In this document: positions 40,591 through 49,239 of the stretch, piece after piece | Layout: every line of letters starts with the position of its first letter | Position numbering within the stretch: position 1 is the stretch's first letter | From: Spongiibacter sp. IMCC21906 | GTDB taxonomy: Bacteria; Pseudomonadota; Gammaproteobacteria; Pseudomonadales; Spongiibacteraceae | Reading direction: 5' to 3' | NCBI RefSeq assembly: GCF_001010805.1 | Contig: NZ_CP011477.1 | Span: forward strand, 2,123,001-2,187,000 | Length of the DNA: 64,000 nucleotides | Program-made: the position numbers and the translations under genes | Notes under the pieces: generated by a model | Database searches by the model: none | The model's input: only the letters and a program-made list of their open reading frames with translations | What the model was told of the DNA's origin: nothing

Positions 40591-41619
40591 CTAATTTACT
40601 TTTCGCGTTTTACCACTTTCGGCCCGAATACGATTCTCTGTTTGCACATAAATCGTGTCGGTTGTTGCCATGCTGGAGTGACCCAAGTCTTCCGACAAGT
40701 CCTTTAATGCCCGGCCGCGTTCGATTTCCATGCTGGCGCCGGTGTGGCGCAACCAATGTGTTGATGCCTCTTTGAGCTTACGCGCTTTGTCTTCGCCTTC
40801 TGCGTCGCGCATTTTTTCGTAAGCTCTATCAAATACCTCTTGCACAATGCGAGTTAATTGCCGGGCTGTCATGCCGCCTTGACCACGAATTTTTTCGACA
40901 ATAGGAGCGTTTTCGCCAGGCGAGGGGAGAGGACTTAAACCCCGATAACTGCGATAACGTTTGAGATAAGGAATAAAACTGTTGGGAACGGTAATATCCC
41001 GCAATTTGCGGCCTTTCCCATATATCTTTAACCACCAGTTACTGTCTGAATCTTCCCAAAAATGCCCCATAACCGGCGACCAATTGCTGCGCTCAGACAA
41101 TTCAGATATGCGTAAAAACAGCGTTTTTAAAGCACAAATAATAAATAAACTACGCTCAAAAAGATGATCTTCTTCGGTCAAGGCAACAGTCACGTTATAG
41201 ACATACTGCCACTGGGATTCGGTCAGACGACGAACTTCCTTAACCTGAGAATCTTTAATAAAGTGTCGGCAATCTGTTTTTGCGATCTGGGCTGGATTGC
41301 CATACAGATATTCTTCATTCATCAAATACTTATAAAAAGCGATAAGTGCGGTGAACGTGGCGGTTAATGTTTGCTGAGACGGTTTGTATTTTTTCTTATC
41401 GGGTGGCGTGTCGCTTTTGACTGTATTTTTGGCTAGTTTCAGCTTGAATGGCGCCCAATCTTTATTTTGCACATAGCTGCCATTGATGTACTGAAATTTT
41501 TCATGGTTTGCCAAGCAAATCCACGTTACCGGTGGCTGCCAGCAGAAATCCGCATAATCCAAAATATCCGACTTGCGAAGTTGATCCATAGGTTTTTGCT
41601 TAAAAAGATAAAGCCACAA
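40591..41619 (-). CDS. Large tyrosine recombinase 'A', 5'-truncated at a 47 bp repeat
   Basis: A phage-integrase-family protein with an intact catalytic set: R in TLFLRISELSE, HxxR in HWLRHTGAS, H in LGHSSMATT and the nucleophile in TIYVQTENR. The listed start is an internal TTG that omits the SAM-like arm. The reading frame stays open upstream to 41835 and encodes a stretch homologous to recombinase B (QLKDF...SGETWW...HWGQEFL) with no ATG, GTG or TTG before it. Homology to B stops exactly where the 47 bp repeat begins (41793). The original 5' end has therefore been replaced, and the gene may be inactive or start at a weak codon. Confidence 0.8.
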   Translation of the reverse strand: MWLYLFKQKPMDQLRKSDILDYADFCWQPPVTWICLANHEKFQYINGSYVQNKDWAPFKLKLAKNTVKSDTPPDKKKYKPSQQTLTATFTALIAFYKYLMNEEYLYGNPAQIAKTDCRHFIKDSQVKEVRRLTESQWQYVYNVTVALTEEDHLFERSLFIICALKTLFLRISELSERSNWSPVMGHFWEDSDSNWWLKIYGKGRKLRDITVPNSFIPYLKRYRSYRGLSPLPSPGENAPIVEKIRGQGGMTARQLTRIVQEVFDRAYEKMRDAEGEDKARKLKEASTHWLRHTGASMEIERGRALKDLSEDLGHSSMATTDTIYVQTENRIRAESGKTRKVN

Positions 41620-41792
41620 TAGAAAACGCTCGGTTTCGTTACGAAAACGCGAGAAAGTATGTACCGACTTATTGCGACCAATGTAATGCAGAAACTCCTG
41701 ACCCCAGTGCCAATGCTGTAGCCACCACGTTTCGCCGGACGTCAGAAACGAATGTAATTCTGAATAAGCATCAAAGCGAAAATCTTTAAGCT

Positions 41793-41839
41793 GGGTGATT
41801 GACTGTATTGGGGTGAATCGACCGATGCTTCTAAGTTAA
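41793..41839. repeat. 47 bp direct repeat, left copy
   Basis: This copy is identical over 47 bases to 47830-47876, in the same orientation, 6,037 bases apart. It begins GGGTGATTGACTG and ends TTCTAAGTTAA. Outside the repeat the two flanks differ on both sides. It marks the left edge of the segment carrying the DRT3 genes and forms the broken 5' end of recombinase A. Confidence 0.95.
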
Positions 41840-42398
41840 GGTATTGATTATATTGGTAATTCATGAAACTTTTGTATAAGTATGAGGTGCAAGTTGCACA
41901 AAACTTGGTTGTAGAAATATAGGTTATCTTTTTTATAAGCTTGGGTTGCTGATGATTGAAGAGTGAAACTCTTGATAGATTGGATAACTAACTGAAATTA
42001 AAAAACAAATAATTTCGTTTTGTACATGTGATAACTCCAAGCGGTAGTAAGAGCGGTACCTTAGGGTCACCCTCCAGCAGGCCCATAGAGGAGCTCACTG
42101 TAGTTATGTAACGTGGCAATAAACATATTCTTCCAAAGCGCTGCTCATGGCAATCACTGCCAACGCTCAATTATTTCCAGGTTGGGACTAAGTAGGGCAC
42201 TAAGGACTCGGCCGCAACTAAGAGATGGACTGCGATATTCAACTTGTTTTCACATTAATTAAAAGAGCCGGATTTGCACCATTAATACCTATTTCGGTGC
42301 ACCTGACTGCAGCGCGTTTTTCCTCGACTATTGCGGCTTGCAACGCCCAAAACCTGAGCGTATAAAGGTAACTAATATGCACCAGGGATTTAGGTGAA
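41840..42398. other. Non-coding segment between left repeat and disrupted integrase
   Basis: About 560 bases with no supportable gene. The first 190 bases are AT-rich and contain a small inverted repeat GTGCAA-G-TTGCAC (41887-41899). They also contain a 26-base stretch (42001-42026) that matches 22 of 26 bases upstream of the Tn3-like transposase. After about 42030 the composition becomes more balanced, and the boundary may be an old junction. Confidence 0.6.
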
Positions 42399-43131
42399 AT
42401 GGTACGGATTCAGGACAGCAGCGGGGCATTTCCCGCATCCCGGCCAAAACGACTCTTCTACCCGAACGAGCCGCGACTCGATACGTTCCCAATTCAGCAT
42501 GTGCAAATCGACTGGCAGCGGCTCATGGCCAAGCGCGAACTCGTGTTGGATACCGTCGACGCGATCCGCCTACTTGCTTAAGCCCGAAGTCCTAGGCCTG
42601 CTCGACGCCGAAAAGCACCCAACTTACCGCCTGATCCTTGGCCTCATGTGGACAACCGGCGCTCGGATCTCAGAGGTCCTAGCGATCACTCCCAGTCACT
42701 TCATCGATGACGGCTACGATTTTATGGTGGTGCTGCGCACACTTAAACAGCGGTCGGGGAGACCGACTAATGTACAACTCGCCCGTAGCCCAAAGCGGGC
42801 CGTGCCCATCATTGACCCGATGCTTCAAGATCGCATACAAAGCTACCTGTACGCGGGACATTTTAGGAAGGACGAGTGGATCTTCACCATGGCGCGCCAG
42901 ACGGTGAACCGGCATATCCACAATTTGGTGGAAAGAGTAGGGGGCGCGCCGACCCCTATTAGCTGCCATACCTTTCGGCACAGCTTCGCGATTCACCTGC
43001 TGCTACACGGACGGCCGCTGAAGATCGTCAGCCAGCTCCTCGGGCACAAATCGATCGAAAGCACGGAAATCTTCACCAATGTGCTCACCGCCGATGGAGG
43101 GCATTTTTTGGACGGGATAGATTTTCATTGA
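42399..43131 (+). pseudogene. Frameshifted plasmid-type tyrosine recombinase lacking the catalytic tyrosine
   Basis: The N-terminal 60 residues (MVRIQDSSGAFPASRPKRLF...) read in one frame from 42399 to a stop at 42581. The rest (LLKPEVLGLLDAEKHP... to HFLDGIDFH) reads in another, so a small insertion or deletion lies near 42575-42582. The family is the compact integrase common on Pseudomonas and Acinetobacter plasmids. R (GARISEVL), HxxR (HTFRHSF) and H (LLGHKS) remain. The nucleophile position, normally STEIYTNV in this family from memory, reads STEIFTNV with TTC at 43072-43074. Two independent lesions mean the gene is dead. Confidence 0.85.
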
Positions 43132-43365: not shown

Positions 43366-44712
43366 ATGCTAGATCAAATGTTCACAGCAGAGAACTTTCG
43401 TCACATCTATGATGCCGAGAATCGTAAAGGGCTCGATTTGGCGAGCCGTTACTTTCCGTCGCTTAAATCGCACACTCTCGCGGTTCGCGATAAGATGAAG
43501 GACATTCGCGAACACCGCGCGGCCGAACCGACCATGGCGGCCGAGGTGTTCGAGGCGAGACTACTTGAGCTGAAGGCTGAACTTACCGAGTTGAAGGCGG
43601 CCAAATCTGCCGCTGTCGATGACCTCATGGATGACATCAGTCAAAAGGTTCTTAAACCGAACTTCAAGATCGATCTTTCCCAAAAAACCGGACCAAAGGG
43701 GAAGCCTGTTTTCTGCATAGATGCAGAGCCTGAAACCTTCTTCGTTATCAAGCAGCTCCAGCGTAATATCCATCGCATTTACGGTGTCAAACAGGCTAAC
43801 CGTCACGACTTGGTCTGCCAGCTTCGCGACATACTCGGCAGCAAGTTTCCTTTCGAACTTGTTCGCACCGATATATCGTCATTTTATGAGAGTATCGACC
43901 GCAAGCGCTTGATCGAAAAGCTGGATCGTGACCAGTTGTTGAGCCCCGCTTCAAAAAAATACATCAAGCAGGTGCTGGATTCATATGGTGTTATCTCCGG
44001 CACCACGACTGGCATTCCTCGGGGTGTTGGTATAAGCGCATATCTGGCGGAGCTGTATCTAAGAGCTGTAGACAAAAAAATCCGGGCGATCCCCGGCTTG
44101 GTCCTATATTGCCGGTTTGTCGATGATATCGTAGCTGTATTTGCTCGACCACCAATAGGCAAAGACCTTGGCTCGTTCAAGGACATGATCATTGCGATCT
44201 TCGGCGATAGTGGGCTTACGCATAACGCCGTCAAAACCCTGGAGTTCAAGTTAGACGACACCGATACGAAGAAGTTTGAATATCTGGGATATCGCTTCCT
44301 CCTCAGCCCGGGGAAATTTGAAATCAGCCCCAGTGCAGCCAAGGTGGCTAAATACCGTGCACGGATGGATGCCGCGTTCGTGGACTATTGGCGAGAGAGG
44401 CCGGTTAACCCAAAGAAGGCATTCAGAAAGCTAATAGGCCGTATAAAGTTTCTGACGGGCAACACCCGTCTTTCTAACAGCAAGTCATGCGCGGTTACTG
44501 GAATCTACTTCAACAATTCGATCGTGACAAACTTGTCTAGCTTGGAACTGCTCGATAAGCGGCTCAAGACCCGTATCAATGAACTGAAGCGGCCCAGCCT
44601 GCAAAAGCAGTTGAAAAAACTCAAGTTCACCACGGGCTTTGAGCAACGCCGGTATCATAATTTCAGTACGAGAGAGTTGCAGGTGATCGTGAGGGTCTGG
44701 AAACATGTCTAA
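43366..44712 (+). CDS. drt3a: Reverse transcriptase Drt3a of a DRT type 3 antiphage system (UG3 group)
   Basis: A 448-residue reverse transcriptase. RT motif A is RTDISSFYESID (about residue 168) and motif B is GIPRGVGISAYLAELYL (about 217). The catalytic motif C is YCRFVDDIVAVF (about 248), and motif E is EYLGYRF (about 304). The N-terminal 100 residues are helical and charged. There is no integrase, maturase or endonuclease domain, which argues against a group II intron or retroelement. It overlaps a second, unrelated RT gene by eight bases. That two-RT operon is the defining layout of DRT type 3. The ATG at 43366 lacks a strong ribosome binding site, and ATG 43378 is an alternative. Confidence 0.87.
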   Translation: MLDQMFTAENFRHIYDAENRKGLDLASRYFPSLKSHTLAVRDKMKDIREHRAAEPTMAAEVFEARLLELKAELTELKAAKSAAVDDLMDDISQKVLKPNFKIDLSQKTGPKGKPVFCIDAEPETFFVIKQLQRNIHRIYGVKQANRHDLVCQLRDILGSKFPFELVRTDISSFYESIDRKRLIEKLDRDQLLSPASKKYIKQVLDSYGVISGTTTGIPRGVGISAYLAELYLRAVDKKIRAIPGLVLYCRFVDDIVAVFARPPIGKDLGSFKDMIIAIFGDSGLTHNAVKTLEFKLDDTDTKKFEYLGYRFLLSPGKFEISPSAAKVAKYRARMDAAFVDYWRERPVNPKKAFRKLIGRIKFLTGNTRLSNSKSCAVTGIYFNNSIVTNLSSLELLDKRLKTRINELKRPSLQKQLKKLKFTTGFEQRRYHNFSTRELQVIVRVWKHV

Positions 44713-46781: not shown

Positions 46782-46903
46782 GGCGCTCCGCTTTACCCTT
46801 AATGGCTGTTGGCAGCCCACACACAAGCGCCTTCTCTTCCTCTATATCAATTGGGGGTTGGGTAACCAGACGGTAGGAGCGGGCCGTCTTTTCACTCTTT
46901 TTT
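46782..46903 (+). ncRNA. Candidate DRT3 non-coding RNA with an exposed ACACACA template
   Basis: Immediately after drt3b, GGCGCT (46782-46787) pairs with AGCGCC (46826-46831). Inside, GGCTG-TTGG-CAGCC (46804-46817) forms a perfect hairpin. The bases left between that hairpin and the outer stem are CACACACA (46818-46825). A small GGTT-GGGT-AACC hairpin (46856-46867) follows. AGACGG/CCGTCT (46868-46889) with a T-rich tail ending in six Ts (46898-46903) then resembles a rho-independent terminator. DRT3 systems are known to include an ncRNA. An alternating AC tract is, as I recall, the template copied by Drt3a into GT repeats. The start site is unknown; the RNA may be cut from the drt3 mRNA or have its own promoter inside drt3b. 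Confidence 0.68.
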
Positions 46904-47105: not shown

Positions 47106-47819
47106 CTAATTAAGGTTATTCAACGCATCCTCAATAATTTCTTCCGGAGGCTCCTCGTAGATCAATGTCGTAGAAGGATTAACATGTCCCGCGATTTTTT
47201 GCGCAACCTTTACTGATTTTTTCTGCTTATGAATGACGTTCGTTATCAGCGATCGTCGACCGCTATGAGAACTCGCTTTTTCGACGCCGGTCCAGTTTCG
47301 GAGGATTACAGCCATATGTTCCTGCAAAGTATTCGGTGAATAGGCTCCGCCTTTCTGAGTGATAAAAAGAGGGGAGGAGGGCTTCAATGTCCCAGCTTTT
47401 TCAATCCGGAGGCGCAAATAGTCCGTGAGAGCGGCACGAAGCGCCGCATCTACCATGGGGAGATCACGTGATTTGCCACGATGCTTCCTAACAGGTGGGT
47501 AGAAATCTTCAGGATTTAGCTCAGCACCAGCTTTGGCTAGCGCTTCAACCTGGCGAACCACCTGGTCAAAACTCGCTACATCGAAACTGACCGTTCTGCG
47601 CCGATACTGGCTTTGGGAGCGGCCCATGGCATCTGCACCTTTGGTGTAGGCTGCTGGCAGACTCATGACTTCGAGCAACTTGAAGTCGGTGCCTGACGGG
47701 CTGAGCTTCGCAACCTCCTTGATCTGAAGCAGGGCGATTTCCTGGGCCCGCAGTCCGAGTTTGAAACTGATCTGCATGATGGCCGTATTCTTTTCAGGAT
47801 GCCGGTGATGCTGGATCAC
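47106..47819 (-). CDS. Compact tyrosine recombinase, 5' end trimmed at the 47 bp repeat
   Basis: A site-specific integrase of about 237 residues that is mostly catalytic domain. R is in KLGLRAQEIALL, HxxR in SSHSGRRSLITN, H in IAGHVNPSTT and the nucleophile in LIYEEPPEE, so it looks catalytically complete. The GTG at 47819 is the only usable start. Family-like sequence (VFDVIQHHRHPEKN) continues four codons further upstream and then meets the right copy of the 47 bp repeat. The native start therefore seems to be lost, as in recombinase A. It faces left, toward the DRT3 cargo. Confidence 0.8.
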   Translation of the reverse strand: MIQHHRHPEKNTAIMQISFKLGLRAQEIALLQIKEVAKLSPSGTDFKLLEVMSLPAAYTKGADAMGRSQSQYRRRTVSFDVASFDQVVRQVEALAKAGAELNPEDFYPPVRKHRGKSRDLPMVDAALRAALTDYLRLRIEKAGTLKPSSPLFITQKGGAYSPNTLQEHMAVILRNWTGVEKASSHSGRRSLITNVIHKQKKSVKVAQKIAGHVNPSTTLIYEEPPEEIIEDALNNLN

Positions 47820-47829
47820 GTCGAAGACA

Positions 47830-47876
47830 GGGTGATTGACTGTATTGGGGTGAATCGACCGATGCTTCTAAGTTAA
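47830..47876. repeat. 47 bp direct repeat, right copy
   Basis: This is the perfect second copy of 41793-41839. It abuts the trimmed 5' end of the compact recombinase on its left and the leader of recombinase B on its right. The pair delimits a 6,037-base unit containing the dead integrase, drt3a, drt3b, the RNA candidate and the compact recombinase. Confidence 0.95.
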
Positions 47877-47997: not shown

Positions 47998-49239
47998 ATG
48001 GCCATTTCGCGTCCTGTCGCGCTGTACCCGACATATCCAGAACTGAAAGACTTCCAAGCTCGCTGTTACCCTGAGATAAGCGACTTCCTCGATTCGGGAG
48101 AATCTTGGTGGCACGTTCACTGGCGCTGGGGCCAGGAATTTCTCTTGTACACTGGTCGCAATAAGTCAGAACATACATACACACGGTTTCGGAATGAAAC
48201 CGAGCGTTTCCTGCTGTGGATTTTTCTATTTAAGGAAAAGCCCATGGAGCAACTTCGTAAGTCTGACATCTTGGACTACGCCGATTTTTGTTGGCAGCCA
48301 CCAGTGTCGTGGATTTGCTTCGCGAACCGCGAAAAATTTCTCTATATCAACGGTTGCCATACACAGAACCCGGAATGGGCGCCATTTAAACTCAAAGTGC
48401 CAAAGAACGTGGAAAGTAACAGAACCCCAGATAAAAAGAAGTACAAACCCTCTCAGGAAACCTTAGCAGCTACCTTCACAGGAATAATCGCATTTTATAA
48501 ATACCTGATGAATGAGGAATATCTGTACGGCAATCCCGCCCAAATCGCTAAAGGCGACTGCCGACATTTCATCAAAGATGCCCAAGTTAAGGAAGTCCGT
48601 CGTTTGACCGAATCGCAATGGCAATATGTGGTTGATGTGACACATGAGCTGGCTGAAGAAGACCATATCTTTGAACGCAGTCTATTTGTGATATGTGCCC
48701 TAAAAACCCTGTTTTTGCGTATATCGGAGCTTTCTGAACGGCCTAACTGGTCGCCGGAAATGCGTCATTTCTGGCAGGACTCTGACGGAAATTGGTGGCT
48801 TAAAATATATGGCAAGGGCCGAAAATTGCGGGATATCACCGTTCCTAACAGCTTTATCCCTTTCCTGAAGCGATACAGGGCCTTTCGCGGTTTAAGTCCA
48901 CTGCCAGGGCCTGGTGAAAGCTATCCCATCGTGGAAAAAATACGTGGGCAAGGTGGTATGAGGTCCCGGCAGCTCACTCGGATCGTGCAAGAGGTGTTTG
49001 ATAAGGCCTACGAGAGAATGCGCGACGAAAAAGGCGAAGACAATGCACGAAAATTGAAGGAAGCGTCATCTCACTGGTTAAGGCACACCGGGGCCAGTAT
49101 GGAAATCGAGCGTGGTCGCGCTCTAAAAGACCTATCTGAAGATCTCGGTCATGCCAGTATGGCTACTACAGACACAGTGTATGTGCATACTGAGAACCGG
49201 TTGCGGGCAGAAAGCGGTAAAAACCGCAAAGTTAATTAA
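47998..49239 (+). CDS. Large tyrosine recombinase 'B', full length
   Basis: A 413-residue phage-integrase-family protein, the intact member of the three-copy family in this region. The N-terminal arm and SAM-like core-binding domain (residues 1-170) include HWRWGQEFLLYTGRNKSEHT. The catalytic residues are R in TLFLRISELSE, HxxR in HWLRHTGAS, H in LGHASMATT and Tyr in DTVYVHTENR. It is head to head with recombinase A, with which it shares most residues. ATG 47998 gives the only N-terminus with a natural start. It is the best candidate for the active recombinase of this island. Confidence 0.88.
   Translation: MAISRPVALYPTYPELKDFQARCYPEISDFLDSGESWWHVHWRWGQEFLLYTGRNKSEHTYTRFRNETERFLLWIFLFKEKPMEQLRKSDILDYADFCWQPPVSWICFANREKFLYINGCHTQNPEWAPFKLKVPKNVESNRTPDKKKYKPSQETLAATFTGIIAFYKYLMNEEYLYGNPAQIAKGDCRHFIKDAQVKEVRRLTESQWQYVVDVTHELAEEDHIFERSLFVICALKTLFLRISELSERPNWSPEMRHFWQDSDGNWWLKIYGKGRKLRDITVPNSFIPFLKRYRAFRGLSPLPGPGESYPIVEKIRGQGGMRSRQLTRIVQEVFDKAYERMRDEKGEDNARKLKEASSHWLRHTGASMEIERGRALKDLSEDLGHASMATTDTVYVHTENRLRAESGKNRKVN

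Follow-up and report, generated by a model that had tools for sequence, protein, structure and literature searches.

A putative template RNA downstream of drt3b in Spongiibacter sp. IMCC21906 and a predicted pseudoknot conserved in its DRT3 clade

Downstream of drt3b in Spongiibacter sp. IMCC21906, a structured non-coding RNA (ncRNA) is predicted from sequence and covariation at about positions 46782–46890, the best extent of the block, in the window, i.e. the stretch of 64,000 nucleotides that was analysed (contig NZ_CP011477.1, positions 2,123,001 to 2,187,000, forward strand). We consider it highly probable that this is the ncRNA of a DRT3 antiphage system and that the whole account holds, in which Drt3a would be templated by the RNA, stop and slippage would occur at hairpin P2, Drt3b would make poly(CA), and the RNA of this clade would contain a 7-bp pseudoknot. 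The RNA and the template idea were already published; the pseudoknot is apparently new, as far as the literature was searched.

Results and discussion

The DRT3 gene pair and its genomic surroundings

The genes drt3a and drt3b (Table 1) are adjacent and overlap by 8 bases. The best PADLOC match of Drt3a was Drt3a PDLC03768 (E 6e-123), accompanied by Pfam RVT_1 and by the Drt3a chain of PDB entry 9z6y (E 1.4e-24); that of Drt3b was Drt3b PDLC03784 (E 4.5e-200), with PDB matches to 26cz (E 2.3e-73) and 9z6y (E 6.4e-62). Sequence identity of the window Drt3b to both solved chains is about 30% (29% to 26CZ for the part of the chain that was aligned, 31.5% to 9z6y). The xVDD catalytic motif is present in both enzymes, as FVDD in Drt3a and YVDD in Drt3b, and a residue alignment placed E24, R116, R284, YVDD 318–321 and Y690 of the window Drt3b opposite E22, R71, R241, Y276–D279 and Y666 of EcoDRT3b; the base-gating Glu and Arg (E24, R284) and the C-terminal priming Tyr (Y690) are all kept. 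Judged by sequence, the locus has the DRT3 gene pair, the catalytic motifs and residues, a predicted downstream ncRNA and ACACAC in a loop. Close relatives of Drt3b (78–83% identity) were found in genomes of Rhizobium, Verticiella, Oxalicibacterium (two), Castellaniella, Variovorax and Paenalcaligenes and on one viral contig. The Paenalcaligenes copy (L008) has interrupted drt3a and drt3b reading frames, and its RNA block is nevertheless conserved.

A perfect 47-bp direct repeat (41793–41839 and 47830–47876) flanks a 6.04-kb segment in the manner of the att sites of a small mobile island. The segment contains a tyrosine recombinase ORF (42394–43131, + strand), drt3a, drt3b, the predicted ncRNA and a second recombinase ORF (47106–47819, − strand). 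With up to 3 mismatches allowed, the repeat occurs twice in the genome of the window and in 0 of 17 other genomes of the genus. On either side of the island lies a tyrosine recombinase gene (40591–41739 and 48094–49239); the two are homologous and inverted relative to each other, with long arms that are 75–76% alike.

Table 1. Features of the DRT3 locus, in window positions; RNA elements are predicted
Feature	Position	Strand	Basis
drt3a, UG3-type reverse transcriptase, 448 aa, active site R-F-V-D-D	43366..44712	+	PADLOC, Pfam, PDB
drt3b, UG8-type reverse transcriptase, 690 aa	44705..46777	+	PADLOC, PDB, residue alignment
Putative DRT3 non-coding RNA, conserved block of ~109 nt	46782..46890	+	Conservation ends ~+113 from the stop; covariance model matches
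P1 outer stem, 5′ arm GGCGC	46782..46786	+	97.3% of cells paired
Pseudoknot helix, 5′ arm TCCGCTT, directly after the P1 5′ arm	46787..46793	+	93.2% of cells paired
P2 hairpin GGCTG-TTGG-CAGCC, immediately 5′ of the tract, candidate 5′ template boundary	46804..46817	+	100% of cells paired
Putative template tract CACACACA, ACACAC invariant	46818..46825	+	52/52 DRT3 loci
P1 outer stem, 3′ arm GCGCC, starting one base after the tract	46827..46831	+	Covariation count
P3 hairpin, weakly supported	46833..46863	+	73.3% of cells paired; double changes in 5/8 pairs
P4 hairpin AGACGG-TAGGAGCGGG-CCGTCT, 10-nt loop	46868..46889	+	97.8% of cells paired
Pseudoknot helix, 3′ arm GAGCGGG, within the P4 loop (46874–46883)	46877..46883	+	Pairs with 46787–46793

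Layout and conservation of the RNA block

The TAA stop of drt3b is followed by CCTT, after which the sequence reads GGCGCT (46782–46787), the P2 hairpin, the tract and AGCGCC (46826–46831), and further 3′ a second hairpin, the AGACGG...CCGTCT hairpin and a T-rich stretch. Direct reading reproduced, in letters and positions, what a first-pass annotation of the window had reported, namely an outer stem that encloses a perfect hairpin, with the tract between this hairpin and the closing strand. Compared with nine relatives, the window shows 76–94% identity over the 113 nt after the drt3b stop, 64–78% over the drt3b DNA and 17–36% over the 120 nt beyond the block. Rfam gave no match at gathering score in the RNA region; at E up to 10 a single match, DnaX on the minus strand (E 4.8), was obtained, which lies below the gathering score and at chance level. 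Promoter-like sites in a promoter/terminator scan did not exceed chance (2 versus 5.1 expected). Of 274 genomes of the class, an exact search for the RNA motif retrieved only that of the window, together with one viral contig (L009); viral scans with L030 and with L021 yielded no relatives, and those with A3 and A4 returned already known contigs only.

The AC tract

Within 300 nt downstream of drt3b, (AC)3 was present in 52 of 52 Drt3a–Drt3b loci, which are not 52 independent intact systems because near-identical strains and frameshifted copies are included. The control stretches contained it in 4 of 40 cases (300 nt upstream of drt3a) and in 0 of 51 (400–700 nt downstream). In the window, ACACAC occupies 46819–46824, in a loop of the predicted RNA. 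Besides relatives of the window, the set took in loci from plasmids, E. coli, viruses and other genomes; a scan for Drt3a covered 64 loci, 7 of which were examined for drt3b and the tract, and four complete new pairs were counted. Loci in which Drt3a was not detected (L027, L049, L059, L060, L061) stand outside the count, and the duplicate L077 was removed.

Two distant relatives among the loci without detected Drt3a, L027 and L059, showed no AC tract in the 400 nt searched. Both are Drt3b-like reverse transcriptases on virus-derived contigs, the former lacking the C-terminal tyrosine while keeping Glu and Arg; such a relative possibly works without an ncRNA.

Stems of the predicted RNA

The fold was evaluated on alignment A1, made up of 15 members of the window's clade; its rows are related, so that its counts do not represent independent events. 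Taken together, P1, P2, P3, P4 and the pseudoknot (31 pairs) were paired in 90.7% of cells versus 41–47% when slid, and gave 46 double-change cells versus 14.8 after shuffling (0/500). P1, P2, P4 and a P3-like helix were also recovered independently by RNAalifold. Four pairs of P1 never vary, which makes them uninformative, and one shows double (compensatory) changes. The outer stem had been described with six pairs, GGCGCT/AGCGCC; five of these hold, and the sixth (46787–46826) was kept in 9 of 15 rows, its base 46787 also being part of the pseudoknot helix. Double changes occurred in one of the five pairs of P2 and in five of the six pairs of P4. The second small hairpin announced earlier, P3, is there in the window and is weakly supported. 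The expectation that the stems covary while ACACAC stays invariant was borne out by the double-change counts in A1 and by the tract in all 52 loci. A viral-contig locus (L041:5121-5224) has both reverse transcriptase genes open and an RNA without P2.

In a pairing test on 20 loci chosen from both classes, the strand 3′ of the tract was paired with its own and with foreign upstream regions, the last 40 nt of drt3b included. Mean energies were −21.0 kcal/mol with the own and −16.6 kcal/mol with foreign regions (0/20,000 permutations); locus by locus the result is weak, the own strand ranking first in 7 of 20 cases and that of the window 14th. In L028 and L037, both of which ranked first, the best duplex was not P1.

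A predicted pseudoknot in the P4 loop

The seven pseudoknot pairs alone held in 93.2% of A1 cells versus 38–55% when slid, with 15 double-change cells versus 3.9 (0/500). Five of the seven pairs carried double changes, for instance from C-G to U-A or from U-A to G-C or C-G; the end pairs failed in some rows (11-114 in 4 of 15, 17-108 in 3 of 15). A covariance model, R1, was built without the pseudoknot pairs, and in the realignment of its 18 matches the pseudoknot held in 93.9% of cells versus 39–56% when slid. R1 matched 18 of 21 clade loci and 0 of 36 other sources, missing L019, L021 and L042; it recovered L040, which was absent from the training set (E 4e-17), and L041 (E 3e-5), where pseudoknot pairing is weak. 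Run over whole loci and both strands, R1 placed the RNA downstream of drt3b only, as the first-pass annotation had anticipated; the outcomes that would speak against its reading, loss of stems and tract or a model match elsewhere, were not found, since stems and tract are conserved and the matches lie downstream of drt3b.

Across eight lineages, pairing every loop with the 5′ strand of its own locus came out best among all 40,320 assignments, a test that includes L019 (Zymomonas), L042 and L021 (Bacteroides plasmid), whose arms had been located by eye beforehand. Because of this, the tail was also scanned with the 12-nt segment after P1, the P1 ends being set by hand, which gave a combined z of −5.2 for the eight lineages at single p values from 5/1000 to 325/1000; the best site of L037 lay elsewhere than in the P4 loop. 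A whole-leader scan, of low power, returned values from 1/100 to 18/100 for five members of the clade.

The DRT3 papers searched did not contain, in their main text, the word "pseudoknot", and literature that joins defense-associated reverse transcriptase, pseudoknot and ncRNA was found for DRT2 and DRT10 only; a prior description for DRT3 is possible. In the excerpted text of the DRT10 report (PMC12632851), the word appears once and concerns telomerase RNA.

Alternative readings of the fold

One alternative would make the block a plain intrinsic terminator that ends the drt3 operon, beside an AC run that arose by chance; a terminator-like hairpin with a U-tract had been annotated. The window has T-rich sequence after the last hairpin, and this hairpin is well conserved. 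Conservation does not extend to the U-tract: within the next 8 nt, the longest runs of T range from 0 to 3 across the 15 rows. The terminator scan, which allowed loops of 3–8 nt, does not list the hairpin, and the conservation of tract and stems already contradicts this reading, which we regard as hardly credible. The last hairpin is no conserved terminator; on the covariation described above, it is the predicted 3′ half of a pseudoknot overlooked in the first-pass annotation.

It is improbable that the RNA instead takes its minimum-energy fold, in which 46782–46797 pairs with 46872–46888 in one long hairpin without P1 and P4. That fold reaches −35.8 kcal/mol versus −17.5 kcal/mol for the nested P1–P4 fold without pseudoknot; it includes the covarying pseudoknot pairs, is paired in 88.2% of cells overall (41–49% when slid) and, outside the seven shared pairs, shows double changes at 6-119 (three) and 18-106 (one). 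However, of the eight pairs that are not among the shared seven, two never fail and the other six are lost in 2 to 5 of the 15 rows (five rows for 8-117; four each for 18-106 and 19-105; two each for 6-119, 20-104 and 21-102), against 97.8% of cells paired for P4, with its double changes in most pairs, and 97.3% for P1. With a z of −0.46, and with 56 of 200 shuffles reaching an equal or lower energy, the window RNA has an ordinary folding energy, and free energy does not distinguish the predicted fold; minimum-energy folding of the window RNA was set aside as uninformative, the alternative helix being conserved only partly. Somewhat less remote, and still unlikely, is a conformational switch with P1 and P4 on one side and the pseudoknot helix on the other as alternative states, e.g. 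of free and Drt3a-bound RNA. Covariation of P4 and of the pseudoknot helix, with that of P1 at one pair, and the joining of the 5′ strand to the P4 region in the minimum-energy fold would agree with a switch, but the positions are compatible: as the seven pairs use only unpaired bases of the P4 loop and the strand after P1, the three helices are not mutually exclusive and one fold can hold them all. Preference is given to the single fold with P1, P4 and the pseudoknot.

Placement within DRT3 and comparison with known systems

In a tree of Drt3b (50 rows), 19 rows of the window's clade formed one group (SH-aLRT 98), and both solved Drt3b chains, entered as their aligned parts only, fell outside it. 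26CZ stood next to L044, with its tract 128 nt after the stop, and 9z6y next to L049, with its tract 124 nt after the stop. In a tree of Drt3a with 44 rows, from which the solved chains were absent, one change accounts for the classes assigned by hand (19 and 25 rows), with a support of 100. Both are quick trees, and the position of long rows (L021, for example) is less certain in that of Drt3a. The Drt3b tree omits L008, L020, L051, L054–L056, L058, L060, L061, L073, L077 and L081 on account of frameshifts or internal stops, redundancy or incompleteness; the Drt3a tree omits L008, L004, L046, L051, L054–L056, L058 and L077. In a near-match search, 9 of 5,426 complete E. coli genomes matched the DRT3 of plasmid locus L020, and the two of these that were entered in the tree (L036, L037) fell within the window's clade, apart from 26CZ EcoDRT3.

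A pseudoknot of the window type was also sought outside the clade. The 12-nt segment scan gave z from −0.86 to +1.22 for ten loci; four loci near 9z6y gave p values of 71/300 (L049), 52/300 (L050), 269/300 (L048) and 19/300 (L057); and the whole-leader scan, of low power, gave 60/100 for L044 and 20/100 for L049. Fifteen loci outside the clade, including those nearest to the solved systems, showed no comparable signal at limited power. The RNA classes cannot be told apart by leader length alone, which is 67 nt in L019 and L042 of the clade and 63 and 73 nt in L032 and L012 outside it.

EcoDRT3 (Wang et al. 2026, excerpts of PMC13174585; Drt3b 26CZ) shares with the window the order Drt3a–Drt3b–ncRNA, ACACAC in a loop and the equivalents of E22, R241 and Y666. 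Its counterpart in the tree, L044 (matching 26CZ at a branch of 0.0017), differs from the window in that the distant tract is followed by a GAAA-loop hairpin, and from the clade in that it is not matched by R1 and has no leader–tail pairing signal. Entries 9z6y and 9z6z (chains Drt3a and Drt3b) are presumed, by the residue numbers E26/R253, to represent the system of Deng et al. 2026. They have the same gene pair as the window, and E26/R253 of L049 correspond to E24/R284; as differences, the Drt3b identity is 31.5%, and L049, the nearest locus, has its tract 124 nt after the stop, is not matched by R1 and lacks a window-type pseudoknot signal. A 6:6:6 Drt3a:Drt3b:ncRNA complex has been reported in reviews for another DRT3 member.

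Resemblances extend beyond DRT3. According to the excerpts of PMC12632851, DRT10 likewise combines a Class 2 reverse transcriptase with a short repeat template, and its SL5, directly upstream of the template loop, is a proposed 5′ boundary, like P2 of the window; unlike the window, DRT10 has a single reverse transcriptase with a SLATT partner, 9-nt repeats and a poorly conserved template. In the DRT2 ncRNA and telomerase RNA, as presented in the excerpts of PMC12039810, the template, in the 5′-to-3′ direction, follows a stem and precedes a conserved pseudoknot, and it gives tandem-repeat DNA, and the window likewise has P2, tract and the predicted P4 pseudoknot in this order; the reverse transcriptases are different ones and the DRT2 template measures 120 nt, so the resemblance is one of layout, and no homology is claimed.

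We think it likely, with some reserve, that DRT3 has more than one kind of template RNA: the window's clade (Pseudomonadota and a Bacteroides plasmid) would have a compact RNA with a conserved pseudoknot 3′ of the template that docks onto the strand beside the outer stem, in the stem–template–pseudoknot order of telomerase RNA and DRT2; both solved systems fall outside it, with no sign of the element at their loci in the tests made.

Proposed mechanism

For EcoDRT3, the excerpted report (PMC13174585) describes an ncRNA downstream of drt3b whose 5′-ACACAC-3′ loop is required, with Drt3a making poly(dTdG); mutations of ACACAC abolish defence and poly(dTdG), Drt3b makes poly(dCdA) via E22, R241 and Y666, and SL4 is proposed as template boundary. 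The earlier suggestion that Drt3a of the window copies the AC tract into GT repeats gains support from this, both genes and the Drt3b residues being present.

The EcoDRT3 mechanism, transferred to the window, is the best reading. Drt3a would bind the RNA and, copying the ACACAC of the P1 junction from 3′ to 5′, make poly(TG), P2 immediately 5′ of the tract would stop the enzyme, and the product would slip back by two or four bases and be extended again. Drt3b, primed from Y690, would make the complementary poly(CA) without a nucleic-acid template, and the poly(TG) and poly(CA) strands would anneal. In the clade, the 7-bp pseudoknot would hold the RNA by joining the P4 loop to the strand after the P1 5′ arm, giving the order stem, template, pseudoknot.

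The comparison made here shows the genes, the residues, the tract and the predicted P1, P2, P4 and pseudoknot; templating, poly(TG), poly(CA) and defence were shown by others in EcoDRT3 and would apply to the window by analogy. We infer production of the RNA, slippage, a boundary role of P2, which follows the proposals for EcoDRT3 SL4 and DRT10 SL5, and a pseudoknot that would position the template on Drt3a. The viral-contig RNA of L041, in which P2 was not found, speaks against a universal boundary role of this hairpin.

Conclusions

The analysis yields a precise and testable predicted fold of the template RNA in a branch of DRT3 on which no experiments were found in the literature searched. 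It separates the common trait of the examined DRT3 loci, ACACAC downstream of drt3b, from the variable fold that surrounds it. If the pseudoknot is real, this branch would add to telomerase RNA and DRT2 another example in which the repeat template lies between a stem and a pseudoknot.
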